From Ferrimonas lipolytica (GTDB lineage: Bacteria > Pseudomonadota > Gammaproteobacteria > Enterobacterales > Shewanellaceae): a DNA stretch of 64,000 bases. Positions 4,715-53,465 of the stretch are shown in pieces (positions within the stretch are counted from its first letter, which is position 1; each line of letters begins with the position of its first letter). The stretch covers positions 806,001-870,000 of the forward strand of contig NZ_CP051180.1 of assembly GCF_012295575.1 (NCBI RefSeq). Reading direction: 5' to 3'. The notes beneath the pieces were generated by a model, which was not told the DNA's origin, did not search any database, and saw nothing but the letters and a program-made list of their open reading frames with translations. The position numbers and the translations under genes were made by a program.

Positions 4715-4743
4715 AAAAGAGCGCAATATGCGCTCTTTTTTAA
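4715..4743 (+). terminator. Intrinsic terminator after cysE
   Basis: A perfect ten-base stem (AAAAGAGCGC / GCGCTCTTTT) with loop AATAT and a T-tract. The T-tract is also the insertion point of the repeat element that starts at 4745. Confidence 0.85.
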
Positions 4744-4744
4744 T

Positions 4745-4919
4745 GCTGTGTACCAATTAAGTGTTGTTCTTTCTAATACAGTTAAAGCACCGGCTAGGCG
4801 AGTCCCGATACAAAGGGTTAAGCAATGCCGTCGCTACCGCGACAGAGTCCCCTAAAAGCAACGAAAACGGTGAAGCTGAAGGCTTAAGATAAACTTCAAC
4901 AGCTAACTACGACCCAGAC
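4745..4919 (+). mobile_element. MITE-like element, copy A (internally deleted)
   Basis: This 175-bp copy starts GCTGTGTACCAATTAAGTG and ends CTAACTACGACCCAGAC. It belongs to the family described in the findings and lacks roughly 115 bp of the middle found in the full copies at 19979 and 62241. It is flanked by the direct repeat TTTTTAAT (4737-4744 and 4920-4927), taken as the target-site duplication. The target was the T-tract of the cysE terminator. No coding capacity. Confidence 0.8.
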
Positions 4920-4934
4920 TTTTTAATGCTGTGA

Positions 4935-6041
4935 TTATAGCGGGAAGGTATTGGTGAGCACCTTATATAATTCGGTACCTTGCTGGGCGTTGGCGCTGGC
5001 AAAGTGCAGGACTGGAATAGCGTCGCAGGGAAGGGTGACATCCTCATGAATTGGACCCGTTTGCCCCAGCTTATGGTAATGCCAGATCCGGGCAATGGGC
5101 TCTCCTTGAATCAGTGGTTGGCCCAGCTCACCTAAGTATTCCACCTGGCCACCGGATGGGCTGTAGAGCGAACGATAGTCTTTCAATAAGCAGGCGTGCT
5201 GGGTTACGACTTCCGGTTGGTGAGTACCGTCGTCCCAACAGCCGTGTTGCTCGAGGTAACTGGCGATCCCAAGGGCGTCTTGTTGTGCTTGGCTTGGGTT
5301 CAGTAGTTCTTGTGAGCCGAGCTCTAAGGTAAAGGCTTCAACCATTATTGGAAAATCACGGCCTAAGCGCTTAAAGGTTTGGCTTAGCTGCCACCACGGA
5401 CTGAATGCCGCTTCGTCTAACGCTCCACCAAAATCTGCCGGCATTATGATGTTTAACGGAATGTTAAAGCGCTTAGCTTGATGCCGAGCAAACTCTGGCA
5501 CATAAAGGTGCCGATCTGAGATTGGCCCAGTATGCAGATCTAAGACGATATCGGCTTCTGTAGCTAATCGTTGTAGGCTGGTCGCCATCTGCTGGCCGGT
5601 CTTTAATCCCCACGGGGACTGCAAGCGATGATTGAGTTGCTGTAATAGCAGCTGTTGAAAGGCCGCTTTAACACGGTTTTCTGGTGTATAGATATTCTGT
5701 TGAGCAAAGGCGCGAATAGCATCAGCATCAAAATGATACTGGCGGTTCCAGTTGTCACCACTGATCGGATCGAATCGCCCTAAAGTAAATTCACCACTCT
5801 TTTGATTGATCCCGATCGGATTTGCCATCGGTACGATAACAAAGTTGCCCTTGGGCGCGTTATCTCGGCACAGTTGCAGGAAGCGTTCGATCACGGCATT
5901 GCCTTGGATCTCAGCACCATGAATGTTTGCTTGAATATATACCCGCGGCCCATCACCGTTTTTAAATCGGATTAACGGGACTTTAGCTGGCTCCCCACTT
6001 GGCTGTTGTCCGACGATCAGTTCCGAAAGCACCATCTGCAT
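4935..6041 (-). CDS. Succinylglutamate desuccinylase/aspartoacylase-family deacylase
   Basis: This is an M14-like zinc amidohydrolase of the AstE/AspA family. Visible motifs are NIHGAEIQGN (zinc-binding His and Glu, about residues 39-48), VLDLHTG (third zinc ligand His) and MVEAFTLELGS (catalytic Glu region). The C-terminal part (SLYSPSGGQVEYLGELGQPLIQ) looks like the small beta-barrel domain common in this family, where the substrate is often an N-acyl amino acid. It is isolated: no arginine-succinyltransferase pathway gene is adjacent, so a true AstE is unlikely and the substrate is open. The upstream Shine-Dalgarno is weak (AGGG). Confidence 0.8.
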   Translation of the reverse strand: MQMVLSELIVGQQPSGEPAKVPLIRFKNGDGPRVYIQANIHGAEIQGNAVIERFLQLCRDNAPKGNFVIVPMANPIGINQKSGEFTLGRFDPISGDNWNRQYHFDADAIRAFAQQNIYTPENRVKAAFQQLLLQQLNHRLQSPWGLKTGQQMATSLQRLATEADIVLDLHTGPISDRHLYVPEFARHQAKRFNIPLNIIMPADFGGALDEAAFSPWWQLSQTFKRLGRDFPIMVEAFTLELGSQELLNPSQAQQDALGIASYLEQHGCWDDGTHQPEVVTQHACLLKDYRSLYSPSGGQVEYLGELGQPLIQGEPIARIWHYHKLGQTGPIHEDVTLPCDAIPVLHFASANAQQGTELYKVLTNTFPL

Positions 6042-6198
6042 CAGTTGTTTACCCTAATAATACGAAAATTGTGTTAACTGCTGTTAGCAATAGTGCTAAG
6101 GCTCTAGTTGTTGTTATAGTAACCGATAGTGAGCTGGGTCACCTTTTGCCTACTGGCCGGTGAACAATAATAACAACTCAGGGATGTAAGATAAGGGT

Positions 6199-6666
6199 AT
6201 GGAAAGCAACTACGTATTAAAACTGTGGAAAAAGCTCAAACATAAGCCGTTTGGTGGCAAGTTGATGGCGATGGCGATATCACGTACCGCGCCATACTTT
6301 AAAACGGTCAGCTCAACCATGATTGAGATAGTACCCAATCGGGTTCAGTTGGTGTTGAAGAAGAAGCGTAAGGTCGAAAATCACATTGGCACCATGCACG
6401 TTATCTCGATCTGTAACGGCCTTGAGCTTGCCATGGGCACAATGGCTGAAGCGTCGATCCCAAAACATTTGCGTTGGATCCCTAAGGGGATGAACCTCGA
6501 CTACACTGCTAAAGCGGGCAGTGATATTCGTTGTGTGGCAGAGGTTGCCGCCGAGGATTGGAAGCCCGGAGATCTATTCGTTAAGGTCACTGCTTTTGAT
6601 AACAACGATGTGGTAGTGGTCGAAGGCACCATCAAGTTATGGGTTAGTGAAAAACCGCAAAAATAA
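6199..6666 (+). CDS. DUF4442-type hotdog-fold protein
   Basis: A 155-residue cytoplasmic protein resembling DUF4442 putative thioesterases. The conserved stretch is NHIGTMHVISICNGLELAMG (about residues 66-85), followed by PKHLRWIPKGMNLDY. The fold suggests acyl-CoA or other thioester substrates, but no catalytic residue can be assigned with certainty. The start has AAGGG close upstream. It is monocistronic between a divergent deacylase and the next transporter; no terminator was identified. Confidence 0.75.
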   Translation: MESNYVLKLWKKLKHKPFGGKLMAMAISRTAPYFKTVSSTMIEIVPNRVQLVLKKKRKVENHIGTMHVISICNGLELAMGTMAEASIPKHLRWIPKGMNLDYTAKAGSDIRCVAEVAAEDWKPGDLFVKVTAFDNNDVVVVEGTIKLWVSEKPQK

Positions 6667-6843
6667 TCAATTAACAGAACCATACCCACTTGTAGATAGG
6701 TTGCAGCCATCACCCTAGCGCAATCACCTCTGTATGCAAGCGACAGGTGGGTTTGGTTGGTTTCTTTATTTATGAGCCCCGTTCAGTTTTGACAATTTCC
6801 TTTCTGCGCTCACCATTCGAGCACTAATTTCAAGCGCTTGGTC

Positions 6844-6860
6844 AATTGGTCTGACTAATT
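6844..6860. promoter_or_regulatory. Palindromic operator-like site upstream of the DUF3360 gene
   Basis: AATTGGTCTGACTAATT is a nearly perfect 17-bp palindrome (AATT-x-GTC-x-GAC-x-AATT). It has the TGGTnnnACCA-like layout of GntR/FadR-subfamily operators such as those of PdhR and LldR. It lies in the 379-bp gap between 6667 and 7045, about 185 bp before the transporter start. The rest of the gap shows no gene. No GntR gene is in the window, so the regulator is unknown. Confidence 0.4.
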
Positions 6861-7045
6861 TAGATCTCCTTCACATTTTGATTATAAGCCCCATTTATTA
6901 ATGCATTTACGAATGACCTTCGAACTAAAGTGCTTACAATGGCCACCGAAAGAGATTTGGGTCAAAATTATCGCAGCTTACTTTGCTAATCTTGATACCA
7001 CGCTTATGCGCCAATTTGTTTTTAACATACGGAGTAGTTGTTGCC

Positions 7046-8575
7046 ATGACTGAGCAAACAACCGAACAACAAGAAAAGTCGTACCGGGAATTACACCGCC
7101 CGGCGAGCGAGTTTGATACTCGTTCAGACTATCTTGACCACGAATTGCAGATCATGAAGCCACGTCGCTTCGGTTTGAACCTGCCAGGTCGTGACTTTAA
7201 CTTTGAGTGGGAAGATTTGGTTCCTGCTATCGCTGGTACCATCGGCATTATTGCCATGTACTCCGCCGTAATGATGTCTTGGGCCGAAGGCTTAACTCAA
7301 GCATGGGATCACATTCAATTAGGCAAAGAGTTTGCCATTGAAGTGTCTCGAGTTGAGATGTTGCTACCGGCACTGTTTTTCTGTGTTATCGCCTCTGGTT
7401 TTGTCAATCCCCGGGCCAACCTAGCTGGTAACCACGGACCAATGATCCCCCTCATTGGTGCTATTGCTTTAGCTGGCGCTCATCCTCTGGCGTTAGCCAT
7501 CTTGTTGGGTGTATTTGGCCTGTTGCTGTCCTACTTTAAGGGCGGTTCCCGTTTGGTCAACCTAACCGGTAATGGTGTTGCTGGTGGTCTGTTGGTGTTC
7601 CTTGGTTTCTCCGGTGCGATGAGCCAAATTGGTAACATTCAAAACTGGGCAACAGGTATCGTGCCTGATGGCGGCGCTGCTGGCGACATGGGTTACGTTG
7701 GCCTAGTGGTACTGGCTGCTGTCATTGTGTTGTATGCGCTATTGGCTCGATTGGGTAAGCGTTGGTTGGCTATTCCGGCCTGTGCCACTGCGGGCTTAGT
7801 GATTGCATTAGCATTAGGCGCTGGCTTTGATCTTAAATTCGAAACCGAAATGGGTCTGCCAAACCTTAACCCAGTCTATTGGTGGGGTTCGACTACTGAA
7901 GGTTGGATGCTAGGTCTGCCTAATCTGCAGCACTTCTTAGCGTCACTGCCGTTTGCAATCCTTGCGGTAGCGATGTGGTCGCCTGACTTCTTAGGTCACC
8001 GTATCTTCCAAGAGCTGAACTACCCGAAAGGTACCGAAAAGGTATTGATGGATGTTGATGACACCATGACCATGTGTTCTATTCGCCAAATGGTGGGTAC
8101 AGCACTGGGCGGCGGTAATATCACGTCCTCTTGGGGTACTTACATGATCCCTGCGGCAATTGCGAAACGTCCTATCCCTGGTGGTGCAATCCTGTTGGGT
8201 CTGTTGACCATGACCGTTGCAATCCTTGGTTCACCAATGGACGTAGCGGTTTGGCCACCGGTAATGCGCGTTGCCTTGTTAGTGGGGGTGTTCTTACCAC
8301 TGCTTGAAGCTGGTGTGCAGATGATCCAAGACGAGAAAGACGCTCAAGCCGCAGGTATCTGTGTCTTTGCTGCGGCGGTTACCAACCCCGTATTGGCTTG
8401 GGCATTGACCATGTTGTTGGATAACAACGGCTTAATTGGCGACAAGAATCGTCCAAGCAAGCTGTCAAAACTGGACCGGATCATCATCCCTGCGTCAGTG
8501 TTGATTATCTGTTTCGCGGCGATGCTCGCTGTTGGTATGTTAGAGTCTAAGTGGGGGATCCCTGCACTGCTGTAA
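7046..8575 (+). CDS. DUF3360-family polytopic membrane protein (putative permease)
   Basis: The 509-residue protein has an acidic cytoplasmic N-terminus of about 60 residues, then about 12 hydrophobic segments (for example DLVPAIAGTIGIIAMYSAVM, GVFGLLLSYF, ALTMLL). The sequence agrees with what I recall of DUF3360 proteins of Vibrio and Shewanella relatives, a family of unknown substrate. GNHGPMIPLIGAIALAGAHP and SWGTYMIPAAIAKRP look like re-entrant or pore motifs. The open frame begins at 6983, but the ATG at 7046, after ACGGAG, starts the conserved hydrophilic region. A strong terminator follows, and a palindromic operator candidate lies upstream. Confidence 0.75.
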   Translation: MTEQTTEQQEKSYRELHRPASEFDTRSDYLDHELQIMKPRRFGLNLPGRDFNFEWEDLVPAIAGTIGIIAMYSAVMMSWAEGLTQAWDHIQLGKEFAIEVSRVEMLLPALFFCVIASGFVNPRANLAGNHGPMIPLIGAIALAGAHPLALAILLGVFGLLLSYFKGGSRLVNLTGNGVAGGLLVFLGFSGAMSQIGNIQNWATGIVPDGGAAGDMGYVGLVVLAAVIVLYALLARLGKRWLAIPACATAGLVIALALGAGFDLKFETEMGLPNLNPVYWWGSTTEGWMLGLPNLQHFLASLPFAILAVAMWSPDFLGHRIFQELNYPKGTEKVLMDVDDTMTMCSIRQMVGTALGGGNITSSWGTYMIPAAIAKRPIPGGAILLGLLTMTVAILGSPMDVAVWPPVMRVALLVGVFLPLLEAGVQMIQDEKDAQAAGICVFAAAVTNPVLAWALTMLLDNNGLIGDKNRPSKLSKLDRIIIPASVLIICFAAMLAVGMLESKWGIPALL

Positions 8576-8602
8576 TACGGTGTAGACTTTAGCAACCAAA
8601 GA

Positions 8603-8632
8603 GAAGGGCGTGCCATTGGCACGCCCTTTTTG
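8603..8632 (+). terminator. Intrinsic terminator after the DUF3360 gene
   Basis: Stem AAGGGCGTGC / GCACGCCCTT with a short loop and a run of five T. Confidence 0.85.
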
Positions 8633-8678
8633 TTTGTCTTAGATCCTACTAACTCTCGGGTGTTTGTCGTTACGCTTA

Positions 8679-9176
8679 TCAGACAGCGCGGATAACTATC
8701 TGGCCGTGGATGTTTTCTAACTCTTGTTGAATTTGATGGCGGTCTAAACTGGCAGCGCCGCTAATCAGTAAATCACCGGTAAAAGCAGTTAGGCCGGAGT
8801 CGGGAATGGCGATGCGATGGTTGTTGAAGCTGTCGATATTAGCGCCATGGTTGGTAATGATAGTGGTGATATCTTGGATCAAACTTGGGTGATCATCGCT
8901 TTCAATATTCCAGTGGTAGCTATGGTCGCCCTGTTGGCCCAGCGGCGATTGGTGGATCTGCACATTGAGCTGATCCAAAGCTAGTAGTTGTTGTTGCAGT
9001 GGTTCAAATGCCGATTGCTCAACGCTGACGCGAATTAGCGCAAAGAAGTGACCATCAAGGTTGTTGGACTTGCTCGTAAGCCAATGGCCATTATGTTGAC
9101 TGATGGTACTCGATAGTTCGTTTAGTATTCCGGGTTTATCTGGGCCATCAATAGCGATTAAGAAGGTCGTGTCCAT
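8679..9176 (-). CDS. ACT-domain protein of the GcvR type
   Basis: A 165-residue protein made of two ACT domains. The first starts FLIAIDGPDKPGILNELSST (residues 5-24), and the second starts at about residue 88 (HWNIESDDHPSLIQDITTII). This is the architecture of GcvR, the glycine-cleavage repressor partner of GcvA. Neither gcvTHP nor gcvA is adjacent, and related stand-alone ACT pairs exist, so I do not assign the symbol. The Shine-Dalgarno AAGGA precedes the ATG. The 319 bp between 9177 and 9495 hold no credible gene. Confidence 0.75.
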   Translation of the reverse strand: MDTTFLIAIDGPDKPGILNELSSTISQHNGHWLTSKSNNLDGHFFALIRVSVEQSAFEPLQQQLLALDQLNVQIHQSPLGQQGDHSYHWNIESDDHPSLIQDITTIITNHGANIDSFNNHRIAIPDSGLTAFTGDLLISGAASLDRHQIQQELENIHGQIVIRAV

Positions 9177-9495
9177 GTTGCCGTCCTTAGTGGAGCTGAC
9201 TGCATTGGAATGAACAGAGCGCCGTAAGCAGTAACCGGCTGGAGTTACTCTGTTGATGTGTGTGCTACGCCATGTTGCGCACTGTGACTACGATTTGAAC
9301 GCTGAACCCATATCAAGGCAAGTAACAACCAGTAAAAATGAAGAGGGGATCACTGTTCATCTGTTTAAAAAATTAGCTTTTAAGCCATTTTTTGCAACGT
9401 TAATTGGTCAGATTGATAAGAACATAGTGGTACAGGGGGAAGGGTGCCATACGCTTGAGGCGCATGACACAATCAGCATAGGTTGCAACGGTGGC

Positions 9496-9975
9496 TTACT
9501 CTGTCGCTTTATTCTGGTAGTTCACACCAACCTTGTCGTAGACAAAGCTTAACAGCCAAATTGGGCCGATCAGTAAGAACTGCATATCTTCGAAAAAACT
9601 GGGTTTGGCCCCTTCGATGATATGACCAATAAACTGGCCTATCCATGCTAATACAAACAACGCTAAAGCGGTTTGCCATAACGGCCAGCTTAGTGATGTC
9701 AGGTGCAAATCGATCAACCACCAATTAAACGCCGCAACAAAGACCATGCCAATCGCCAGCTGTGGCGACAGCCGCCAGTAGAACACAAGGCTAATCGCCA
9801 TTAGCAAGGTAGCGCCGTTGAGGAGTGGCTGTGCTGGTATTTGCACTCCCCACAGCAGAGCGAGAACAGTCCAAAGAATGACCGGAACACAGAGCCAGTG
9901 AATGGCTTTATTAGTGGCATTTTGATGACTGACACCGTAAGCGTCGAGCCATTGTTGAATATTTTTATTTAGCAT
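9496..9975 (-). CDS. Mpo1-like (DUF962) membrane protein
   Basis: A 159-residue protein with about four membrane segments. The two conserved blocks of the DUF962/Mpo1 family are present: YGVSHQNATNKAIHWLCVP (residues 13-31, with the metal-binding-type histidines) and IGQFIGHIIEGAKPSFFED (about residues 112-130). Yeast Mpo1 is an Fe(II)-dependent dioxygenase acting on 2-hydroxy fatty acids; whether the bacterial protein does the same is inference. It is monocistronic. Confidence 0.8.
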   Translation of the reverse strand: MLNKNIQQWLDAYGVSHQNATNKAIHWLCVPVILWTVLALLWGVQIPAQPLLNGATLLMAISLVFYWRLSPQLAIGMVFVAAFNWWLIDLHLTSLSWPLWQTALALFVLAWIGQFIGHIIEGAKPSFFEDMQFLLIGPIWLLSFVYDKVGVNYQNKATE

Positions 9976-10057
9976 TGCTTAACTATTAAAGGTGACATTG
10001 GTCACACTTTATGCCAGCTTGATCTAATAATCCAATGGCGACAATTCAGCGAAATAG

Positions 10058-10996
10058 ATGACCAGTATTCATCAGTTGGCACGTGTGGACCACCGCATCG
10101 ACCTTAACTTATTCCGCGTCTTTCGAGCTGTAGCGGAGTTAGGCTCAACCTCAGCTGCAGCGCACCAGCTTCATCTAACTCAATCTGCGGTTTCGCATGC
10201 GCTCGGGCGTTTGCGCCAACAGGTGGGGGATCCCTTGCTGGTGAAACAGGGGCGAGGTTTGGTGCTAACCCCCCATGGACGCGACATCTTGCCAAAAGTG
10301 AGCCAAGCGCTAAATAGTTTGCAGCTGTGTCAGCGAAGTGGTGGCAGCTTTAACCCGGCGAGCTCAGACCTGGAGTTTCATCTAGGCTTTCGTGATCTGT
10401 TAGAGGCGATGGTGTTGCCGCAAATGTTGTCTCATCTTGAGCACCTTAACTCCAGCGTCAGTGTGGCCTCATTTCGAGTTACAGGCAGCGAATTGGAGTC
10501 GCGCTTGCTCGATGGCGAAGTTGATTTGGTAGTGGATATGGAGCAAAGCGTTTCTGAACAGATCGCCTCGCAGCTGTATCGAAATGAACCGTTGGCGGTC
10601 GTGGTTGGTGAACAGCATCCAAGTTACCTTGATAACACCATCTCGATGGATGACTACGTTAGTGCCAATCATGTCTTGGTAACCTTGGAACGTACCGAAC
10701 GCACCTTTGTGGAACAACGAATGCAAGGGATCGCTAGTAAACGCAATGTGCAGCTCTATTGTGAGAGCTATTTTGCTGCAGTTAAGGTGGTTGCTGCGAC
10801 GAGATTGCTGCTGACCATGCCGCAACGTTACGCGGAGCAATTGAGCGAACTGCTGCCGGTGAAGGTATTACCGCTGCCGTTTCCCTGCGATCCATTGCCG
10901 GTGCGGCTGTATTGGCGCCGAGCCAACTCAGAAGAGCCGGCGATCCACTGGTTGTTGAAAAGCATGATTGCGATGACTACCGCGAAACTGGAATAA
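10058..10996 (+). CDS. LysR-family transcriptional regulator
   Basis: The 312-residue protein has the N-terminal winged HTH (LNLFRVFRAVAELGSTSAAAH, about residues 17-37, then LTQSAVSHALGRLR) and a type-2 periplasmic-binding-like effector domain from about residue 95. It converges on the porin gene at 11095-12294 and shares a bidirectional terminator with it. It could control the porin, but the porin promoter is 1.3 kb away on the other side, so this is only a guess. Confidence 0.9.
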   Translation: MTSIHQLARVDHRIDLNLFRVFRAVAELGSTSAAAHQLHLTQSAVSHALGRLRQQVGDPLLVKQGRGLVLTPHGRDILPKVSQALNSLQLCQRSGGSFNPASSDLEFHLGFRDLLEAMVLPQMLSHLEHLNSSVSVASFRVTGSELESRLLDGEVDLVVDMEQSVSEQIASQLYRNEPLAVVVGEQHPSYLDNTISMDDYVSANHVLVTLERTERTFVEQRMQGIASKRNVQLYCESYFAAVKVVAATRLLLTMPQRYAEQLSELLPVKVLPLPFPCDPLPVRLYWRRANSEEPAIHWLLKSMIAMTTAKLE

Positions 10997-11025
10997 CCAT
11001 GCGAGCTAATAACAACACTCAAACA

Positions 11026-11053
11026 ATTAATGCGCCATTATTGGCGCATTAAT
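11026..11053. terminator. Bidirectional hairpin between LysR and porin genes
   Basis: Perfect inverted repeat ATTAATGCGCCA / TGGCGCATTAAT with a four-base loop, in the 98 bp between two convergent genes. Its A/T-rich base pairs give U-rich tails in both directions. Confidence 0.65.
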
Positions 11054-11094
11054 ATTACCTGCTTTGGATCATTATCTGGTTGTTTGCGCTGTGC

Positions 11095-12294
11095 TCAAAA
11101 GTTGGCGCTAAGCCAGATCCAAAACTTATCGGTATCAACCTTATTTGCTTCACTGTCACCTTCACTATACATCGCGTATTTAGCTCCTGCGGCGTAGTGC
11201 TGGTAGAATTTTATCGCGTAACTAAAGTCCCACTCGTCACCAAGGTCGTCAATGCGTCTAGTTGACTTATCGGCGTCAAAACGATGGTAAACCACATTCC
11301 ACGTCCCTTTAAGCACTTGGCCGGATGCACCAATGTAGTAATCCTCTATGCCTTGATCAGGGGTTGATAGAAATTGATCTGCCCAACCATTAAATTTATG
11401 CAACGTTGCCAATGGTGTAGAAAAACCGTAATCGCCACCGTCTGAGCCCAGCACCTCAAGCCCCCCAGTGATAGTGATGCCGCGCCAACCAACACCGCCC
11501 TCAAACAGGTAGTAATCGGTATCAAAACTGCCGTTGGCGTTGTCGGCATCCTGCATCGCGTATTCGATTGCATAGCGCAGGGTTAGCTTATCAGCTTCGG
11601 CATCGCCGGCGAGACGAATGCCATAGGTTTCACTTTCGTTGGGACTGTCATCCTCCTCAAGCAGGTAGACGTAGCCAGAGAGTTTGCCGACATCGGTACC
11701 GATGTCGGCGTTAAATAGATGGTCTTGGGCATCAACATCGCGGTCATCGGCGAAAATGCGGTTACGTTGATCGATGTAAGCGTAGGCAACATTGATGTTG
11801 TGGCTAGCTTGCCAATGCAGCTCAACAGCATCAAAGGTTTGCCTGTCCTGACGCCAACCAACGTGGCCTATAAAGCGTTGGTTATCGCGTACCAACACCT
11901 GTCGGCCGACGGTTGCTCGAAATTGCTCATATTTGTAACGCAGGTAGAGCTGGTCGAGTTCCGTTGTTTCCGGATCGGCAACGGTGGAGTAGCGGGGGTT
12001 AGAACCCAGCCCATCGTTGTAATCGTCAACAAATGCTTCCCGCGAGTCTTCAAATTCGAGCAAGCCGCTAAGACCCCGATACTCGCCAGTACTGAGGGTG
12101 AGTCGGGTTCTAATGGTAGAAGCATCGGCGTCTTTGAGGTCATTGTCTTGGTCGACATGTTCATAGCGCCAACGCATATCGAGATTCACCTCGCCAGCTG
12201 AAATTGCGTCGGCAAATGAGGTTACTTGCGCACTGACTGATAACGGAACGAGCATCAAAGCAGGTAACAGTTTGATTGCGGTGTTTTTGTTCAT
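11095..12294 (-). CDS. Outer-membrane porin, alginate-export/OprD-like barrel
   Basis: The 399-residue product has a signal peptide (MNKNTAIKLLPALMLVPLSVSA) and then alternating amphipathic strands throughout. Landmarks of the alginate_exp-type porins are RWRYEHVDQDN, RTRLTLSTGEYRGLSGLLEFED and the EQFRATVGRQ element, and it ends in Phe as outer-membrane barrels do. The substrate is unknown. The open frame starts at 12408, but the ATG at 12294, preceded by GGAGGAG, begins the signal peptide exactly. It is divergent from the PhnA-type gene at 12512. Confidence 0.85.
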   Translation of the reverse strand: MNKNTAIKLLPALMLVPLSVSAQVTSFADAISAGEVNLDMRWRYEHVDQDNDLKDADASTIRTRLTLSTGEYRGLSGLLEFEDSREAFVDDYNDGLGSNPRYSTVADPETTELDQLYLRYKYEQFRATVGRQVLVRDNQRFIGHVGWRQDRQTFDAVELHWQASHNINVAYAYIDQRNRIFADDRDVDAQDHLFNADIGTDVGKLSGYVYLLEEDDSPNESETYGIRLAGDAEADKLTLRYAIEYAMQDADNANGSFDTDYYLFEGGVGWRGITITGGLEVLGSDGGDYGFSTPLATLHKFNGWADQFLSTPDQGIEDYYIGASGQVLKGTWNVVYHRFDADKSTRRIDDLGDEWDFSYAIKFYQHYAAGAKYAMYSEGDSEANKVDTDKFWIWLSANF

Positions 12295-13093: not shown

Positions 13094-13110
13094 TCGACTG
13101 CCGTTGTCAC

Positions 13111-13138: not shown

Positions 13139-13177
13139 TGCCTGCTCGTTAGCATCAATGGCTTAGCGCCGATTTAA

Positions 13178-13282
13178 GGCTGTGTCGTAGTTAGCTGTTG
13201 AAGTTTATCTTAAGCCTTCGGCTTCACCGATTGCGGTGCTTTAACAGCATTGGAAACAACAACACTTAGCTGGTACCCAGCC
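13178..13282 (-). mobile_element. MITE-like element, copy B1 (short form, reverse orientation)
   Basis: A 105-bp deletion derivative keeping both ends (GGCTGTGTCGTAG at the left, TGGTACCCAGCC at the right) and the AAGCCTTCGGCTT hairpin. It lies in tandem with B2, eight bases (TTTTTGGG) apart. The direct repeat CGATTTAA is found at 13170-13177 (left of B1) and 13600-13607 (right of B2), so the pair behaves as one insertion. Confidence 0.75.
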
Positions 13283-13290
13283 TTTTTGGG

Positions 13291-13599
13291 GGCGGTATCA
13301 CAGTTAAGTGTTGAGGTTTATATCAAGCCTTTGGCTCTACCGATTGCGGTGCTTTTAGGGACGATGTCGCAGTGGCGACGGCACATTCTTGTATGCAATT
13401 CTTGTATGCATTAGTGGGGCGAGCTTCGCCCCCTTTGGAATCCCCTTTGCCTTAGGTCGCAGTCCAAAGCGCTTCGCTGGACTGCTCCAATGCGGCAGAA
13501 GATCAACGGCGGCAGTGCTTAACCCTTTGTATCGGTGCTCGCCTAGCCGGTGTTTTAACTGTATTAGAAAGAACAACAACACTTAATTGGTACACAGCC
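13291..13599 (-). mobile_element. MITE-like element, copy B2 (full length, reverse orientation)
   Basis: A 309-bp copy, the longest of the family. It reads from GGCGGTATCACAG to TTAATTGGTACACAGCC and contains a small internal tandem duplication of ATTCTTGTATGCA near 13385-13410. The right flank CGATTTAA (13600-13607) matches the left flank of B1. Open frames inside it are by-products of the repeat. Confidence 0.8.
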
Positions 13600-19978: not shown

Positions 19979-20269
19979 GGCAGTGTCGTAGTTAGCTGTT
20001 TAAGTTTACCCCAAGCCTTCGGCTTCACTGATGTCGGTGCTTTTAGGGGGGATGTCGCGGTGGTGACGGCACATTCTTGTATGCATTAGCGGGGGAGCTT
20101 CGCCCTCTTTGGAATCCCCTTTGCCTTAGGTCACAGTCCAAAACGCTTCGCTGGACTGCTCCAATGCGGCAGAAGATCAATAGCGGTAGTGCTTTCCCCT
20201 TGTATCAGAACTCGCCTAGCCGGTGCTTTAACTGTATTCGAAAGAACAACACTTAATTGAGACACAGCC
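19979..20269 (-). mobile_element. MITE-like element, copy C (full length, reverse orientation)
   Basis: A 291-bp copy from GGCAGTGTCGTAGTTAG to TTAATTGAGACACAGCC. It is flanked by the perfect direct repeat TTTAACTA at 19971-19978 and 20270-20277. The match continues for three more bases (GGC) because the element also starts GGC. It contains the family's AAGCCTTCGGCTT hairpin. The 212 bp between the element and 20482 contain only a weak GC hairpin (about 20438-20457), downstream of the minus-strand gene. Confidence 0.85.
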
Positions 20270-42345: not shown

Positions 42346-42350
42346 TGCCG

Positions 42351-42455
42351 CTGCCACGGGGTGTGCACAGCAGATTAACTGATTGCTGACTGAGATCCGC
42401 ATTAGCGGGAACCCGTAGAACCTGATCCGGATAGTACCGGCGTAGGAATGGCTGC
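42351..42455 (+). ncRNA. TPP riboswitch (THI element)
   Basis: The conserved THI-box blocks occur in order: GGGGTG-type start (GGGGTGTGC), CTGAGA (42390-42395), ACCC, GAACCTGATCCGG, AGTACCGGCGTAGGAA. The closing P1 stem GCCA / TGGC is at 42353-42356 and 42449-42452. The aptamer binds thiamine pyrophosphate and turns off the following genes. No clear intrinsic terminator lies between it and the receptor gene, so control may be at translation or by Rho. An ATG at 42448 lies inside the aptamer and is not the gene start. Confidence 0.93.
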
Positions 42456-42564
42456 TGATTTTAGTTGCATTACGGTTGCCGCAAATGCAGCACAGATCCG
42501 CTCAATTCTTTACCCTCACTGCTCTGTCCGATCGCACGTTTTGTTAACAAGTGGATGTTATAAC

Positions 42565-44676: not shown

Positions 44677-44687
44677 GGAAAGCGACT

Positions 44688-46393: not shown

Positions 46394-46425
46394 TATTGGC
46401 CTTGGGCTGATACTAAGGAGATTAT

Positions 46426-47265
46426 GTGCAGCGCGGACTAATAGTAGCCATTTTGTTGATTTTCCTTGCCGGATGCTCGGCTCGATTTGTCTATAACTGG
46501 ATGGATTGGATTGTGCCTTGGGAAGTTGATGATTATGTCGATTTAAGCCGTGATCAAACTAAGGCGCTGGATCAACTGATTGAGTCAACCTTAGCATGGC
46601 ACCGAGTTAATGAGCTGCCCCAATACGTACAACACATTGATGATCTTGAAGCGGCGTTAGAGCAACCGATGACGCCTGAACGAGTACAGAGCCAACTCGA
46701 CCGATTCGAAGAGCACTGGAATCGCCTATACCAACACCTCGTTCCTGATGTTATCCCTGCGCTACAAGATCTGACCGATGAACAGGTGCAGCAGATCATC
46801 GACACTGCCCAAGATGAAGAGGATGAGTTGCGGCAGGAGTATCAAGATCTCACCATCGACGAGCGGATCGAAAAATCCAATAAATCGATGAAGAAGGGGA
46901 TGAAGAAACGCATCGGCCGTTTGAGCGAGCAACAACAGCAACTGATTGAACAGTTCAACGACAGTCGCCATCGTTCACTCAAAGAGTGGTTTAGCTATCG
47001 CGACCGTTACATGCAACTGTTGATTTTGGGCTTAACAGAGCGGGCTGATAGTGAAAAGTTAGCGCAACGCTTGCGGTTATTATTGATTGATTACGATGAG
47101 CTTAAGTCGCTAGAACATAAAAAGATTCTCGACTTTAATCGACAATTGTTGGTGGTTTATCTAGCGGATATGCACAGTTCGCTCAGCAATAAACAACTAA
47201 AGCGGTTAGTAGAGGACCTCGATTCACTACGAGAGGACTTTATATATCTGCAACGGGCGCAATAA
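46426..47265 (+). CDS. DUF6279 lipoprotein
   Basis: The 279-residue protein has a lipobox (FLAGCSARF) and a long helical body, rich in Gln, Glu and Leu, with RFVYNWMDWIVPWEVDDYVDL near the N-terminus. This is the DUF6279 pattern. The start is GTG at 46426 after AAGGAG. It lies 32 bp after the kinase and may be co-transcribed with the thiamine operon, without obvious functional relation. Confidence 0.75.
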   Translation: MQRGLIVAILLIFLAGCSARFVYNWMDWIVPWEVDDYVDLSRDQTKALDQLIESTLAWHRVNELPQYVQHIDDLEAALEQPMTPERVQSQLDRFEEHWNRLYQHLVPDVIPALQDLTDEQVQQIIDTAQDEEDELRQEYQDLTIDERIEKSNKSMKKGMKKRIGRLSEQQQQLIEQFNDSRHRSLKEWFSYRDRYMQLLILGLTERADSEKLAQRLRLLLIDYDELKSLEHKKILDFNRQLLVVYLADMHSSLSNKQLKRLVEDLDSLREDFIYLQRAQ

Positions 47266-47319
47266 AACCGACAGCGGCTCGGTCTATTGCTTTAAGTTGA
47301 GTACAAAGGATTTCTCGAA

Positions 47320-47907
47320 ATGACAGCAATTACCCAATTGTGGCACCGTTTTTTTTCTCAAACCCAAGTGGCTGAAGGCTTAGCACCGTTGGCACTACGG
47401 TTATACCTCGCGCCGGTGTTAATGCAGGCCGGCTACAACAAACTCAGTGCCTTTGAAGACACCGCGGCGTGGTTTGGTAACCCAGATTGGGGCTTAGGTT
47501 TGCCCTTTCCTGAGTTGATGACGGCATTGGCTGCCGGTACTGAATTGTTTGGCGGAGCGCTGCTCGTGATTGGCCTATTTACTCGACTGGTGGCGATCCC
47601 AATGATGGTTACCATGTTGGTGGCTGCGTTTGCGGTGCATTGGCAAAATGGCTGGTTAGCGATTGCCGATGCTAGCTCGTGGTTGGCGAATGAGCGCGTA
47701 CTCGACTCGGTTGAAAAGCTAGATCGCGCTAAAGTCATTTTGCAAGAGAACGGCAACTACGATTGGCTAACTAGCTCCGGCAGTGTAGTGGTGTTGAACA
47801 ATGGTATCGAATTCGCCATTACCTATTTTGTTATGCTACTTGCGCTGTACTTTATGGGCGGTGGCAAGTACACCAGTGTGGATTATTACTTAACTCGAAA
47901 GCAGTAA
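47320..47907 (+). CDS. DoxX-family membrane protein
   Basis: The 195-residue protein has four membrane helices with the DoxX signatures LALRLYLAPVLMQAGYNKL and LPFPELMTALAAGTELFGGALLVIGLFTRL (split here), then MVTMLVAAFAVHW. The insert of about 40 residues between helices 3 and 4 carries charged residues. DoxX proteins form redox-linked membrane complexes in some species; the role here is unknown. AAAGGAT precedes the ATG. Confidence 0.85.
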   Translation: MTAITQLWHRFFSQTQVAEGLAPLALRLYLAPVLMQAGYNKLSAFEDTAAWFGNPDWGLGLPFPELMTALAAGTELFGGALLVIGLFTRLVAIPMMVTMLVAAFAVHWQNGWLAIADASSWLANERVLDSVEKLDRAKVILQENGNYDWLTSSGSVVVLNNGIEFAITYFVMLLALYFMGGGKYTSVDYYLTRKQ

Positions 47908-47976
47908 TAACAAGCTCAGATTAGTCATGGCCGAAATTGGCTAGTTGATTTGAATTAGTGTGGTTATGCTTAAGCC

Positions 47977-49395
47977 ATGACCACGTTAACGCTCTCCTCC
48001 CAACAGTGTCGGCAGGCACGACTCGCCAAAGATCCCCGTTTCGACGGGCGCTTTTTTACCGGTGTTCACAGCACCAAAATCTATTGCCGCAGTGTTTGCC
48101 CTGTGCACCCACCGCTTGAGAAGAATGTCAGTTATTTTGCTACCCCAGCAGAAGCAGAGCAGGCTGGCTTGCGCCCATGCTTACGCTGCCGCCCTGAGTT
48201 GGCACCGCCAGGGGCAGATTGGCGCAAGCATCAACCTCGACTTAGCCGCGCGGTGACGTTATTGCACAGCCATGACGTTACCAGCGTAAGGGAGCTAGCC
48301 CAAGCCTGCTATTTGAGCGAGCGGCAACTGCGGCGGTTGTTTCAGCAACATCTTGGTGTATCGCCTTTGCAGGCACTGCAAACCCATAGATTATTGCAAG
48401 CTAAGCAGCTATTGACCGACTCAAGTTTAACTATTACTGAAGTGGCGTACGCCAGTGGCTACCAGAGTGTGCGTCGGTTTAATGATGCTTTTGTGCAACA
48501 CTATCGCTTGGCACCAAGCCGTTTTCGTCAGCAGACTGATGTCAGTGAGAGCAGTGCGCTGGTATTGCGACTGCCGTTTCGCCGGCCCTTTGATTATCAG
48601 AACCTGCTTGGTTTTTTCGAAGCTCGAGCGATTGATGGGGTTGAGTGGGTTGAGGATGGCCGATTTCATAAACGCCTTAGCCCGTCACAAAACATGATGG
48701 TTGAGATGGGGGAACAGCAGTTGCTGGTCACCCTGACTGGAGTCGCTCCCCAGCATTTACCAGATTATCGGCTCCGTCTCCGGCGGATGTGGGATCTGGA
48801 TGCTGACCCGCTGATTATTGCAACTGATTTGAATAAGCAGCCGTCAATGGCGGCGTTGGTCGAGGCCTACCCAGGCTTGCGTTTAGCGGCATACTGGGAT
48901 GGTTGGGAAGCGCTACTGCGAGCGATTCTTGGGCAGCAAGTCACTATCGAAGCAGGGCGTAAGTTGTTATCGAAACTGGTTGCTATCCACACTGATGCAG
49001 GCGGTTTTGGCTTACCGTCGCCGCAACAATTACTGAGTTTGGATATCGCTCCATTGGGAATACCCGGTAGCCGCAAGCAAACCCTTTATCGAGTTGCTGC
49101 CGCGGCAGTCGATTGGGATCTCCATCGCTGGCCAGATGTTGAACGGCTGAGCGAACCATTATTAGCGGTTAAGGGAGTAGGGCCGTGGACAGTAGCTTAT
49201 TGGCGTTTACGTAGTGGGATGGACTCGGATAGTTTACCCAGCGGTGATGTGGTGCTGCGTAAAGCAGCGGCACAGCAGGGATTGGCTAACGATGCAGCTG
49301 AGTTAGAAGTCGTGGCTCAGTTATGGCGCCCTTGGCGAAGTTATGCCACTAATTTATTGTGGCGCAGTACAGTAGAAGGTAATGATGTTTTATAG
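47977..49395 (+). CDS. alkA: Ada-type/AraC/AlkA fusion, DNA-3-methyladenine glycosylase II
   Basis: The 472-residue protein has four parts: a methyl-accepting zinc domain like the Ada N-terminus (C37, C41, C68, C71), an AraC HTH (about residues 90-185: SVRELAQACYLSERQLRRLF), an AlkA N-terminal domain (about 195-305), and an HhH-GPD glycosylase domain with the catalytic Asp in LPSGDVVLRK. So it senses methyl-phosphotriesters, probably regulates transcription and excises alkylated bases. It lacks the second, O6-methylguanine methyltransferase domain of Ada; that activity is supplied by ogt, which overlaps by 14 bp. Confidence 0.9.
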   Translation: MTTLTLSSQQCRQARLAKDPRFDGRFFTGVHSTKIYCRSVCPVHPPLEKNVSYFATPAEAEQAGLRPCLRCRPELAPPGADWRKHQPRLSRAVTLLHSHDVTSVRELAQACYLSERQLRRLFQQHLGVSPLQALQTHRLLQAKQLLTDSSLTITEVAYASGYQSVRRFNDAFVQHYRLAPSRFRQQTDVSESSALVLRLPFRRPFDYQNLLGFFEARAIDGVEWVEDGRFHKRLSPSQNMMVEMGEQQLLVTLTGVAPQHLPDYRLRLRRMWDLDADPLIIATDLNKQPSMAALVEAYPGLRLAAYWDGWEALLRAILGQQVTIEAGRKLLSKLVAIHTDAGGFGLPSPQQLLSLDIAPLGIPGSRKQTLYRVAAAAVDWDLHRWPDVERLSEPLLAVKGVGPWTVAYWRLRSGMDSDSLPSGDVVLRKAAAQQGLANDAAELEVVAQLWRPWRSYATNLLWRSTVEGNDVL

Positions 49396-49864
49396 TGAAT
49401 TAGTAACCCCATTGGGAAAGGTTCTAATTGTTGGTGATGAACAAGGGCTGCGACAGGTTGCCTTTCAGCACGGGGCACAACCGCAGCGTATCGAAGCGGA
49501 TTGGCAGCGCAACGACCAGGCACTGGCCCAAGCACGACAGCAGTTATGCCAATACTTTGCCGGTGAGCGACAGCAGTTCGAGCTAACGCTCGCGCCTAAA
49601 GGGACTGAATTTCAACAGCAAGTATGGCGCGCCTTGGTGGAGATCCCTTATGGGCAGACTGCCAGTTATGGCGAGGTTGCCAACCAGATTGGCAAACCTA
49701 AAGCGGTGCGGGCACTCGGTGCGGCTAACGGTAAAAACCCACTGGCGGTGGTGGTGCCGTGTCACCGAGTAATTGGTGCCAACGGTACCTTGACTGGCTA
49801 TGCCGGTGGGCTCGCTTTAAAAGCGCAGTTGTTGCAGTTGGAACAACCTGATCTACTGCGTTAA
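49382..49864 (+). CDS. ogt: Methylated-DNA--protein-cysteine S-methyltransferase
   Basis: The 160-residue protein has the methyl-acceptor motif PCHRV with nucleophile C127 and the helix-turn-helix region GTEFQQQVWRALVEIPYGQT. It repairs O6-methylguanine in a suicide reaction. The start ATG at 49382 lies inside the end of the glycosylase gene (14-bp overlap), so the two are coupled. No independent promoter was seen. Confidence 0.93.
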   Translation: MMFYSELVTPLGKVLIVGDEQGLRQVAFQHGAQPQRIEADWQRNDQALAQARQQLCQYFAGERQQFELTLAPKGTEFQQQVWRALVEIPYGQTASYGEVANQIGKPKAVRALGAANGKNPLAVVVPCHRVIGANGTLTGYAGGLALKAQLLQLEQPDLLR

Positions 49865-49915
49865 AGTCAGGTAAGATGGCAAATGAGAATCAACTCGATC
49901 TAAACCGGAGCTGCC

Positions 49916-50464
49916 ATGGATGCGCAACAACTTCTTCTTAATCGTCACTCTCAGCCTCGATTAACTGAGCCGGGCCCTAATCCTGACCAACTACAACTGA
50001 TTCTGCAGGCGGCGTTGCGGGCGCCAGATCACGCCATGCTTAAACCGTACGAATTTGTGGTCGCGCAGGAAGAAGGGTTGAACCGCTTAGGTGAGATCTT
50101 TTTCGAGTCAGCCCAAGCCAGCGGAGACAGTGGTGAGAGTTTGGCTCGAGCTCGATTGTTACCGACTCGAGCACCAATGGTGATTACGGTAATCGCTAAG
50201 GTGACCGAGCACCCGAAGGTCCCACCGATAGAACAGCACCTTACGGCTGGTTGCGCATTGTTGCAGATGCAGCAGATGGCGTTAGCACTTGGCTTGGGTG
50301 GCGTTTGGCGTAGCGGAAATTTTGCCCGGGATAATGTGGTCCGCGACGCGTTCGGGCTGCAACAACAGGATGAGATTGTTGGCTTTCTTTATCTTGGTAC
50401 TCCAGTTAAAGCCACTCAGCCAACCACAGCCAAAGCAATCACTCCCTACTGGCGCCTGTTGTAG
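49916..50464 (+). CDS. ydjA: Nitroreductase-family protein YdjA
   Basis: The 182-residue FMN protein begins LLNRHSQPRLTEPGPNPDQL and has the YdjA-type blocks APDHAMLKPYEFV, LQMQQMALALGLGGVWRSG and EIVGFLYLGTP. This subgroup has a short flavin pocket and low nitroreductase activity. CCGGAG precedes the ATG at a good distance. It may be read together with the repair genes, 51 bp downstream of ogt. Confidence 0.88.
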   Translation: MDAQQLLLNRHSQPRLTEPGPNPDQLQLILQAALRAPDHAMLKPYEFVVAQEEGLNRLGEIFFESAQASGDSGESLARARLLPTRAPMVITVIAKVTEHPKVPPIEQHLTAGCALLQMQQMALALGLGGVWRSGNFARDNVVRDAFGLQQQDEIVGFLYLGTPVKATQPTTAKAITPYWRLL

Positions 50465-50488
50465 TGGTGTCGTTTCATTTCATTCGCC

Positions 50489-51574
50489 TTAGTCATTAGC
50501 AATTAGCGGCCAAGGGAGTAGGGCGATGGCAGGTTGATGCAAGCTTGATAAATAAAGGGTATCCCCCTGCAACAGGGCCCCGGTGACATGGGCATACCCA
50601 CCTTGAGGATCTTGTAAGTTAAAACGGATTTGACCTCGCTGATCAAAACCAACCACATGGCCATAACGAGTCGCTTGCGGCCGAATTGTGGCAGGCAGTC
50701 GTTGAATCATTTTTCGGAGCTGTGGCTTGTTAGCCAACCAATCCAATAGGGCATTACGAGGTGAGACCAGCCCGAGCCAATAGGTGCCATCATCGGCGCG
50801 GCTTAGGTTATCGGGAAAGCCCGGTAAGTTGTCGAGTAGTACTTCCGCTTGGCCTTGGTTATCGCCCTTTAGGTGCAGCTTTAATACTCGATAATGTCCA
50901 GTCTCCGCGACTAATAGGCTGCGGTCGTTATCCGCTAATGCTACGCCGTTGGCAAAGTTAAGCCCGGTTAAGATGACCGTGGCCGTCCCTGTCACGGGAT
51001 CAAACTGAATGACTCGACCGCTGCCCGCATGTTCGTTAACGTCGATCATGCTGGCTTGATAGGTGCCATATTGCTGCGCCGCGTGTCGGGTCGTGGATTC
51101 ACTAAGATATAGGGTGCCATCGGCGGCAATCGCCACTGAGTTGGCGTAGATAAGCGCTTGGCCACCAACCTCGGTCAGTACCTTCGTCAAGGTGCCATTG
51201 GGTTCTAACCGCAATAGACCTTGGTGAGCATCGGCAATGTAGAGATTGTTATGTCGGTCGAATTGCAATCCCAGTGGCCGACCTCCGGTGTTGCTAACAA
51301 TCTTCAGCTCGCCATTAATGATGCAACCAATGTCGCCGTTGCTTAAGCCGAAGTAAACCTTACCCCGGTTATCTGCAGCTAAGGTCTCTGGCCCTGGGAA
51401 TGGTGTTGCTATCGTTGTTAGTGCAGCGAGCTGTTGGTTGGAGCTAAATGGCGCCTGATAGCCCCGATCGCTCGGTGGCTGCCATGACATGGGGTTAATT
51501 GGCACTGGCCATGAACTGAGATAGACCAGAGTTGCAACCAGCAGCGATGCAATGCTTAGCTTCCATGCAGACAT
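50489..51574 (-). CDS. SMP-30/gluconolactonase or strictosidine-synthase-like protein, exported
   Basis: The 361-residue protein has an N-terminal hydrophobic anchor or signal (LSIASLLVATLVYLSSW) and a six-bladed propeller. Blades show repeated NLYIADAHQGLLRLEPNGT, YLSESTTRHAAQQYGTYQ and LLVAETGHYRVLKL; DNLSRADDGTYWLGL is the characteristic strictosidine-synthase-type blade. The metal-dependent hydrolase activity is inferred only. The open frame starts at 51670, but the ATG at 51574 after AAAGGA begins the anchor. Confidence 0.8.
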   Translation of the reverse strand: MSAWKLSIASLLVATLVYLSSWPVPINPMSWQPPSDRGYQAPFSSNQQLAALTTIATPFPGPETLAADNRGKVYFGLSNGDIGCIINGELKIVSNTGGRPLGLQFDRHNNLYIADAHQGLLRLEPNGTLTKVLTEVGGQALIYANSVAIAADGTLYLSESTTRHAAQQYGTYQASMIDVNEHAGSGRVIQFDPVTGTATVILTGLNFANGVALADNDRSLLVAETGHYRVLKLHLKGDNQGQAEVLLDNLPGFPDNLSRADDGTYWLGLVSPRNALLDWLANKPQLRKMIQRLPATIRPQATRYGHVVGFDQRGQIRFNLQDPQGGYAHVTGALLQGDTLYLSSLHQPAIALLPWPLIAND

Positions 51575-51728
51575 TGAGGTTTCCTTTGTATTTTTAACCT
51601 TGTAACTTGGTCCTATTCTAAGGTTTAGTAAATAGCTAGATGATGTTTGAGTAACAATAGCTGCAATCACATTGGGTTAAGTTGATCCTGTTGTGAGCAT
51701 CGATTGGCAACCAAAGTGGTGGTGACGA

Positions 51729-52973
51729 GTGTTAAAAGCGATGTTGAGAGTGTTCCAAGCTATTCTGCTGGTAGCAGTATTGACCCCAGTAACAGCTACG
51801 GCACAAGATTTGAAACCTTATCTACTGGTGATATCAATCGACGGTATGCGTTGGGATTACCTCGATGTTCATCAACCCACTAACCTGCTGGCGTTTGCAC
51901 AACATAGCGCACAGGTGAAGCACCTCATTCCTGCGTATCCTAGTAAAACCTTTCCAAATCACTATAGCTTGGTGACCGGTTTATATCCGCAGCATCACGG
52001 CATTGTTGGTAACCGTTTTTATAGCCCAGAGCTGGGGCGAGAATACAACATGCGTGACGCTAGAACGGTGACTGACGGAAAATTCTATGGCGGCGTACCA
52101 ATTTGGTCGTTGGCGGAACAACAGGGGCTAAAATCAGCGGTGTACTTTTGGCCGGGCTCAGAAGCTGAAATCGCTGGCGAACGCCCGAGTTACTATAAGA
52201 AATATTCCAGCAAGGTAAGCAGTAGTAAACGGATTAAGCAGGTGATTGATTGGTTTGAGTTGCCTGAGAACGAGCGACCGCAATATGTCTCCGTTTATTT
52301 TTCTTCGGTCGACTCGGTTGGCCACAGCAATGGACCGTTCCACCCGCGTACTGGCAAAACCCTGCGCAAACTGGACGTGCGTATCGGTCAACTATTGGCT
52401 GAGATAGAAACATTACCGATGGCGGTTAATGTCATCATCACTTCAGATCATGGTATGCGCTCGTTGGTTGATATGCCCAAGGTGTTGATTGATAGACGGC
52501 TGGGAGCATGGCGTAAGGCTCGCGCCTCGTTTCGAGTGATTGGCAATGGTTCATTGATTCAGTTTTATCATCAAGGTGGCGGCGATAAAACCGCAGAGTT
52601 AGCGAAATTGCGCTCTGTGCTGGATGGCTTTGATGATAGCCAGTTCTATACCCGCGAGGAGATCCCTGCTGAGCTTAACTTTTCTGAACACAGTGCGATT
52701 GGCGATGCGGTGCTGATGAGTAATAGCCACTATTTAACCTATCGTGATGCCAAACCGGCTCCGGCAGGCGGCCACGGCTTTGATCCGAACATAGACCCTG
52801 ATATGCATACCCTGTTGCTGGCTTCTGGGCCTGCATTTCAACCGCAGGTGGTTGTCGATAGTGCTGACAATGTTGATCTATACCCATTAATGGCGCAGAT
52901 ATTAGGTTTGACCATTGAGCAACCAATCGATGGTGAATTGAAAATTTTGCGGCCATTACTTAAGCCTGATTGA
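51729..52973 (+). CDS. NPP-type alkaline phosphatase-family phosphodiesterase, exported
   Basis: The 414-residue protein has a signal peptide (ending TATAQ) and the ectonucleotide pyrophosphatase/phosphodiesterase core: LVISIDGMRWDYLD (metal Asp), YPSKTFPNHYSLVTGLYPQHHGIVGN with nucleophile Thr in SKTFPNH, ITSDHGM (metal Asp-His) and GGHGFDPN. The likely substrates are nucleotide or lysophospholipid diesters in the periplasm. The start GTG at 51729 or the ATG at 51741 are both possible. Confidence 0.88.
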   Translation: MLKAMLRVFQAILLVAVLTPVTATAQDLKPYLLVISIDGMRWDYLDVHQPTNLLAFAQHSAQVKHLIPAYPSKTFPNHYSLVTGLYPQHHGIVGNRFYSPELGREYNMRDARTVTDGKFYGGVPIWSLAEQQGLKSAVYFWPGSEAEIAGERPSYYKKYSSKVSSSKRIKQVIDWFELPENERPQYVSVYFSSVDSVGHSNGPFHPRTGKTLRKLDVRIGQLLAEIETLPMAVNVIITSDHGMRSLVDMPKVLIDRRLGAWRKARASFRVIGNGSLIQFYHQGGGDKTAELAKLRSVLDGFDDSQFYTREEIPAELNFSEHSAIGDAVLMSNSHYLTYRDAKPAPAGGHGFDPNIDPDMHTLLLASGPAFQPQVVVDSADNVDLYPLMAQILGLTIEQPIDGELKILRPLLKPD

Positions 52974-53073
52974 TGTTTGCGCAGGCGGCTTGCTCAACGG
53001 AACTTACGGTGCATGTTAATTCAACGAGTTGGCGATAGTGTAGGCGTTCGGTCATATTCTTCTATATCTGCCC

Positions 53074-53102
53074 TTGACCCATTACCGTTCCGACAGTAAA
53101 GT
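53074..53102 (+). promoter_or_regulatory. Promoter of tRNA-Ser
   Basis: TTGACC and TAAAGT with a 17-bp spacer, followed by a GC-rich discriminator (TACGCCCCG) typical of stable RNA genes. The start point is about 65 bp upstream of the tRNA. Confidence 0.5.
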
Positions 53103-53174
53103 TACGCCCCGTTGCTGAGGCGCAAGCCCAACAGCAGTTCGAGTGAGAACTCGATAAACATCGAACAATTTAAA

Positions 53175-53262
53175 GGTCAGGTGTCCGAGTGGCTGAAGGA
53201 GCACGCCTGGAAAGTGTGTATACGGCAACGTATCGAGAGTTCGAATCTCTCCCTGACCGCCA
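53175..53262 (+). tRNA. serX: tRNA-Ser (anticodon GGA)
   Basis: An 88-nt cloverleaf with a long variable arm. The acceptor stem is GGTCAGG / CCTGACC, the anticodon GGA is at 53209-53211 and CCA is encoded (53260-53262). It is nearly the same as E. coli tRNA-Ser(GGA), with substitutions that keep pairing. It reads UCC/UCU codons. A strong terminator follows at once. Confidence 0.95.
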
Positions 53263-53272
53263 TATAAACAAC

Positions 53273-53307
53273 AACGCCCCGCACGAAAGTGCGGGGCGTT
53301 TTTGTTT
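53273..53307 (+). terminator. Intrinsic terminator after tRNA-Ser
   Basis: AACGCCCCGCAC / GTGCGGGGCGTT, loop GAAA, then TTTTGTTT. Its T-tract is the left target-site duplicate of the next element. Confidence 0.88.
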
Positions 53308-53456
53308 GGTTGTGTACCAATTTAGTGTTGTTCTTGCTAATGCTGTTAAAGCTCCCCCCTAATGCATACAAGAATGTGCCGTCGCCACCGCGACATCCTC
53401 CCCTAAAGCACCAAAATCGCTTGATATAAACCTCAGCAGCTAACTACGACACAGCC
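53308..53456 (+). mobile_element. MITE-like element, copy D (internally deleted)
   Basis: A 149-bp copy from GGTTGTGTACCAATTTAG to CTAACTACGACACAGCC, missing the centre between the AAAGCT and AATGCATACAAG blocks of the family. It is flanked by the direct repeat TTTTTGTTT at 53299-53307 and 53457-53465, inside the T-tract of the tRNA terminator. Confidence 0.82.
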
Positions 53457-53465
53457 TTTTTGTTT

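Follow-up and report, generated by a model that had tools for sequence, protein, structure and literature searches.

The 64,000-nucleotide window analysed here (positions 806,001–870,000 of the 4.13-Mb single-contig genome of the marine bacterium Ferrimonas lipolytica) holds five copies, A to E, of one repeat: a miniature inverted-repeat transposable element (MITE) of ~291 bp with ends GGCTGTGT...ACACAGCC and an 8-bp target duplication. Copies A and D lie at intrinsic terminators; B, C and E have no hairpin of −8 kcal/mol at their targets. Behind cysE, the terminator hairpin AAAGAGCGCAATATGCGCTCTTT (4716–4738, + strand, fold −13.3 kcal/mol), whose T-tract runs on to 4741, extends into the left target duplication of copy A (TTTTTAAT, 4737–4744, +), which is repeated at the right of the element (TTTTTAAT, 4920–4927, +), both being read from the sequence. 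Copy A itself is an internally deleted MITE (4745–4919, − strand) whose R-type end faces the hairpin, and the first G of its element end seems to have been lost. Right behind its right duplication, GCTGTG at 4928–4933 resembles an element end and is perhaps what is left of a previous insertion into this T-tract.

Copy D (53308–53456, −), also internally deleted, starts 45 bp past the tRNA-Ser(GGA) gene (53175–53262), directly behind a terminator hairpin (53273–53300, +, fold −25.1 kcal/mol) with a T-tract to 53307. Its left duplication is TTTTGTTT (53300–53307, +) and its right repeat TTTTTGTTT (53457–53465, +); the duplication reads as 9 nucleotides versus the family's 8, consistent with one additional T. 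A second tRNA-Ser(GGA) gene (L061:9163-9250) has an identical flank and terminator, and both genes hold an element in the same T-tract, of 149 bp (copy D) and 299 bp (L061:9295), probably through segmental duplication followed by internal deletion of the element. Because L061:9295 sits in the same terminator of a duplicated gene, copy D is possibly not an independent insertion. The first-pass annotation of this DNA had claimed that A and D use the T-run of a terminator hairpin as target and that duplication of the run leaves the terminator intact. The two folds directly adjoin the duplications, as that claim holds, and each hairpin appears from the sequence to have retained its T-tract; among the window copies, though, the description fits only two of five.

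The remaining copies lie elsewhere. Copy B (13178–13599, +) consists of two elements in tandem, with its target CGATTTAA away from a terminator T-tract; the elements stand head to tail with the junction CAGCCTTTTTGGGGGC and a single perfect CGATTTAA duplication around both. Copies C (19979–20269, +, 291 bp, target TTTAACTA) and E (62241–62531, −, target TTTAATTA) are full-length MITEs without a hairpin at the target.

To place these five copies in the genome, the end pattern was scanned with up to 3 mismatches allowed, which gave 273 forward and 280 reverse matches compared to 2 and 1 for a reversed-pattern control, and hence ~275 copies. The 291-bp consensus is represented by 69 full-length copies with a median identity to it of 91%. 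The repeat is short, carries no transposase, and has its ends and duplication length in common with an insertion sequence (IS), as expected of a MITE. Further counts are based on a systematic sample of alternate 20-kb blocks (100 blocks, 2.0 Mb; 48% of the genome) plus the window, in which ends were paired and elements cut by block edges dropped; 133 paired elements were obtained, of which three longer than 450 bp were dropped and 130 kept. At sites free of A/T runs, a duplication of 8 bp matched at 7 or 8 of 8 positions in 31/43 copies, while lengths of 7 and 9 bp, with one mismatch allowed, were rejected as they fitted only 3/43 and 2/42.

Terminator hairpins are strongly enriched at the insertion sites beyond what the target sequence predicts. 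Upstream of each duplication, the best hairpin that ended at its start was folded on the T-rich strand by RNA-energy prediction, with a threshold of ≤ −8 kcal/mol, and compared with intergenic control sites carrying the identical 8-mer (3,039 sites, up to 30 per copy). Hairpins at this threshold were found at 75 of 130 copies compared to 38.8 expected, a number reached in none of 5000 simulations; 60 copies reached −12 kcal/mol (28.5 expected) and 41 reached −15 (17.3 expected). On the opposite strand only 16/130 copies reached −8, and 12% of random intergenic strand-sites did so. When the G+C content of the upstream 5 nt was matched too, for the 128 copies having such controls, 75 hairpins were observed and 54.7 expected (0/10,000 simulations as high). 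The copy pair D and L061:9295 is the sole one with shared flanks, which limits double counting among the 75 hairpin sites to one. The clustering at terminators beyond an A/T preference that the first-pass annotation had anticipated is therefore borne out in this sample.

A T-run of at least 4 was present in the duplication at 65 of the 75 hairpin sites (14 with runs of 4, 12 with runs of 5 and 39 with runs of 6–8), and where the duplication contained at least six consecutive Ts, a hairpin was found at 39/42 copies compared to 609/1,255 control sites. The duplication starts at the exact end of a G/C-closed stem in 35/75 hairpin sites and within 1 nt of it in 63/75. A preference for T-runs would by itself lead to much the same register, so this describes the site rather than proving recognition of the stem. 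Either element end can face the hairpin (43 vs 32).

The same preference was evident when counted from the target side. All T-runs of at least 5 in the sampled blocks were classified after element removal, with unpaired ends masked. Among intergenic runs, 45/470 behind a hairpin were occupied compared to 12/895 others (odds ratio 7.8, P = 2.6e-12), which answers in the affirmative whether terminators are preferred over other A/T runs; occupancy was ~1% without a hairpin and up to 12% with a strong one. The difference was present both within 200 nt behind a same-strand gene (35/283 with a hairpin vs 6/183 without, P = 3.5e-4) and in other intergenic contexts (10/187 vs 6/712, P = 3.0e-4). In coding sequence, by a looser count, six T-runs in total were occupied, 5/428 with a hairpin and 1/2,589 without, though some of these calls may be false because coding was defined as simple open reading frames (ORFs) of at least 100 codons. 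Logistic regression on the 1,365 intergenic runs, 57 of them occupied, showed contributions from the strength of an upstream hairpin, the length of the T-run and a 3′ position, and the interval for the strength of a downstream hairpin included zero.

The likely source of transposition is an IS of the IS1595 family. F. lipolytica contains a single Pfam IS1595 transposase match, which lies in a relic of 1,029 bp (L040:2058-3086). This relic shares its ends with the MITE and has the duplication TATTAAAA/TATTAAAG, and a protein search added a second, internally deleted transposase fragment (L225). No intact transposase was found in this genome, only broken copies, one with 9 stops and another in two fragments. 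With ~275 MITE copies set against broken transposase genes only, the driver seems extinct here. ISs of ~1,023 bp with these ends are present in the Ferrimonas genome G011 and in F. futtsuensis, and retain an open reading frame in 3/5 G011 copies and 4/4 F. futtsuensis matches. The F. futtsuensis and G011 proteins scored 185.4 and 174.2 bits, respectively, with the NCBIfam IS1595 model NF033547 (cut-off 75), 45.5 and 37.4 bits with IS1_IS1595_Zn (cut-off 28), and 42.9 and 35.2 bits with PF12762 (cut-off 27). The 8-bp duplication is perfect in 5/5 G011 copies and likewise 8/8 in F. futtsuensis, where one side is a contig end.

These autonomous relatives use the same target. Terminator T-tracts hold 5/5 G011 ISs and 2/2 scorable F. 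futtsuensis ISs, with CTTTTTTG behind a G/C stem at 5/7 of them. Related ISs in Telluria antibiotica (47–49% identity) have a hairpin and T-tract in 6/6 scored cases, and at the one Massilia IS the hairpin folds at −14.2 kcal/mol and the T-tract is weak. Overall, ISs with GGCTGTGT ends from Ferrimonas, Telluria and Massilia are at a hairpin in 14/15 scorable cases, the relic of F. lipolytica itself being the exception. The MITEs of the closest relative, G010, follow the same pattern: among the loci fetched, 19/22 two-sided copies lie at such hairpins, compared to 6/22 on the other strand. G010 carries a different, 602-bp version of the MITE at terminators (L237, L241, L264, L271). The ends of this version hardly vary, and it may stem from a more recent burst.

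The cysE site could also be viewed without its element. Seven relatives were searched behind cysE for a hairpin of ≤ −8 kcal/mol with at least 4 Ts within 150 nt and for element ends within 400 nt; a T-run hairpin was present in 6/7 and the element end pattern in 0/7. The simplest reading is that the cysE terminator predates the insertion.

Taken together, we consider it likely that the MITEs were moved in trans by an IS1595-family transposase that favours terminator T-tracts and has since decayed in this genome. Such a DDE transposase, of the ISXO2-like type, would prefer A/T-rich 8-bp targets, and specifically the T-tract directly behind the G/C stem of an intrinsic terminator. The points of strand transfer would bracket the U-tract, one at the junction of stem and T-tract and the other 8 nt downstream, and the junction may be recognised as a feature of the DNA. 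The 8-bp duplication leaves each hairpin with a full T-tract, so that occupied sites should still terminate transcription in vivo.

Several observations weigh against this interpretation or limit its reach. The preference is strong but not absolute, as 55/130 copies have no such hairpin, and duplications whose longest T-run is at most 3 show little excess (10/47 copies vs 116/806 controls). The hairpins rest on RNA-energy predictions and are in that sense predicted terminators. T-runs with only a downstream hairpin were occupied in 2/63 cases, too few to be told apart either from terminators (P = 0.14) or from runs without a hairpin (P = 0.20). Neither IS relic of F. lipolytica lies in a recognisable terminator, and G010, although the closest relative, is the one without a T-run hairpin behind cysE by the rule above. 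Nor is the preference general in IS1595. Of 19 scorable wider relatives, 14 had no hairpin (L186, L187, L198, L202, L204, L233, L234, L232, L283, L286, L288, L289, L290 and L292), with the ends of L186, L202 and L204 being the least certain (5 or 6 of 8 duplication bases match). A hairpin with a T-tract was seen in G264, G391 and an A. salmonicida plasmid, and a hairpin without a clear T-tract in G368 (−10.0 kcal/mol) and Acidovorax (−9.4). Terminator choice as the marker of a single transposase clade is not supported, since it needs 3 changes on a 16-row transposase tree that was labelled before the final batch of wider relatives was scored. The terminator habit is lineage-bound or patchy.

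The plasmids in these comparisons are 10 hand-picked from 34 records with a match, and some IS1595 matches in the plasmid scan are annotated as ISAchd1, ISOar1, ISAma5 or ISMsa1 type. A separate scan of genome contigs with the element end pattern gave no match. The IS counts leave out L177–L179, L182, L184, L185, L188, L192, L197, L199–L201, L203, L205–L208, L210, L225 (the second relic of F. lipolytica), L235, L284 and L291, where a pair of ends with its duplication could not be located or a flank required for scoring was absent; the end matches of L192 and L284 were weak. Inspected by eye on the left, the side that is visible, L178 and L179 have a hairpin with a T-tract, and L177 and L225 do not.

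A different account of the distribution is a plain preference for A/T runs followed by purifying selection, with the survivors found outside genes and promoters and so mostly at terminators. Selection does play some part: of the 130 sampled copies only 1 is within an ORF, gene pairs in divergent orientation are under-represented (16/127), and T-run length and 3′ context have independent effects. On its own, however, this account seems improbable to us. Intergenic controls with the same 8-mer reach about half the observed hairpin rate, and a hairpin effect among identical 8-mers and within gene-context classes, which also persists with upstream G+C matched, is not predicted by selection. The IS copies at hairpins in G011 and Telluria argue in the same direction. 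Moreover, 16/35 listed insertions of ISApl4, another IS1595-family element, are inside genes (PMC12561309); elements of this kind are therefore not necessarily restricted to terminators by selection alone. Most likely, then, there is a real target preference, with selection trimming the rest. The first-pass annotation had called the targeting a safe-haven strategy; the data show a terminator preference together with a near-absence from coding sequence, which must in part be due to selection, and an evolved strategy is an interpretation.

A possible, though less probable, variant of transposase preference differs in the recognition step, and its likelihood overlaps with that of the reading we favour: the transposase would take its cue from transcription, be it RNA polymerase in the act of terminating, the hairpin in the nascent RNA or the open bubble, and not from the sequence or shape of the DNA. 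T-runs with a hairpin are occupied more often behind a same-strand gene than elsewhere (35/283 vs 10/187, P = 0.011), and an effect is seen for upstream but not for downstream hairpins, which is the polarity expected of a terminator. Among hairpins of ≤ −12 kcal/mol, however, the context difference is not significant (32/248 vs 9/117, P = 0.16), and gene context is confounded with selection. That the elements bring their own terminators, as SPRITE-type repeats do, with the T-tract part of the element rather than its target, is highly improbable. In its favour, the element has inverted-repeat ends, and after insertion its right end is followed by a T-tract, but the hairpins lie outside the element ends and vary by site, the duplication is present on both sides, and the element-free cysE terminators of the relatives contradict it.

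Other identities for the repeat were rejected. The hairpin and T-tract are not within the repeat, as they would be in a SPRITE-type terminator-like repeat, and the element itself does not form the hairpin. A structured RNA is not indicated, as the fold of full-length copy C is barely more stable than those of shuffled sequences (z −0.66), and low folding z elsewhere was traced to a stretch including the host terminator. A class C group II intron, which has a ribozyme and reverse transcriptase and makes no duplication, does not agree with the 8-bp duplication. An Rfam scan of the window at gathering scores returned a TPP riboswitch only (RF00059, 66.6 bits, 42347–42465, +).

Some other IS families are known to target stem-loops. 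Like the described members of the IS1595 family (ISXO2-like; e.g. ISApl4 of the IS1016 group), the IS relatives reported here combine a transposase domain, a zinc-binding domain, a length of ~1 kb, GG-type inverted ends and an A/T-rich 8-bp duplication. ISApl4 (712 bp) is described as having A/T-rich targets, unlike the terminator preference seen here, and the word terminator is absent from the main text of that paper (PMC12561309). REP-targeting ISs such as ISPpu9 are likewise DNA elements directed to structured extragenic palindromes (PMC8450116, PMC1525189), but REP families share sequence, whereas the terminators here share architecture and not sequence. The BrickBuilt MITE of Porphyromonas gingivalis is reported as intergenic, with flanking terminators and/or polyadenylation sites predicted in 10/19 copies; in its described copy the terminator ends ~34 nt before the element, while here the T-tract itself is the duplicated target (PMC4596501). 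The insertion-preference section of a MITE review does not mention terminator T-tracts as targets (PMC10969869), and among the matches listed in a literature search, whose coverage lies outside most subscription journals, no title or abstract opening reports IS1595-type insertion into terminators.

Sparing the host by insertion behind terminators is already documented for class C (group IIC) introns, whose insertion sites lie immediately behind Rho-independent terminators, where little harm is done (PMC3522654, citing Robart et al. 2007). Those introns are RNA retroelements that use base pairing; the elements described here are DNA-based and of the DDE type, have inverted ends and duplicate 8 bp of target. 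We hold it about evenly balanced that an IS1595 lineage reads the terminator by its architecture, with strand transfer at the junction, and so represents a DNA-only route to the class C intron niche, with its MITEs in about one in ten (45/470 sampled) of the intergenic T-tract terminators of this genome. Insertion into the T-tract that ends a transcript should do little damage. If the targeting is direct, its recognition step would be testable with the intact Ferrimonas or Telluria transposases, such a transposase would be a candidate tool for gene-sparing insertions, and the positions of the elements would amount to a partial catalogue of terminators.

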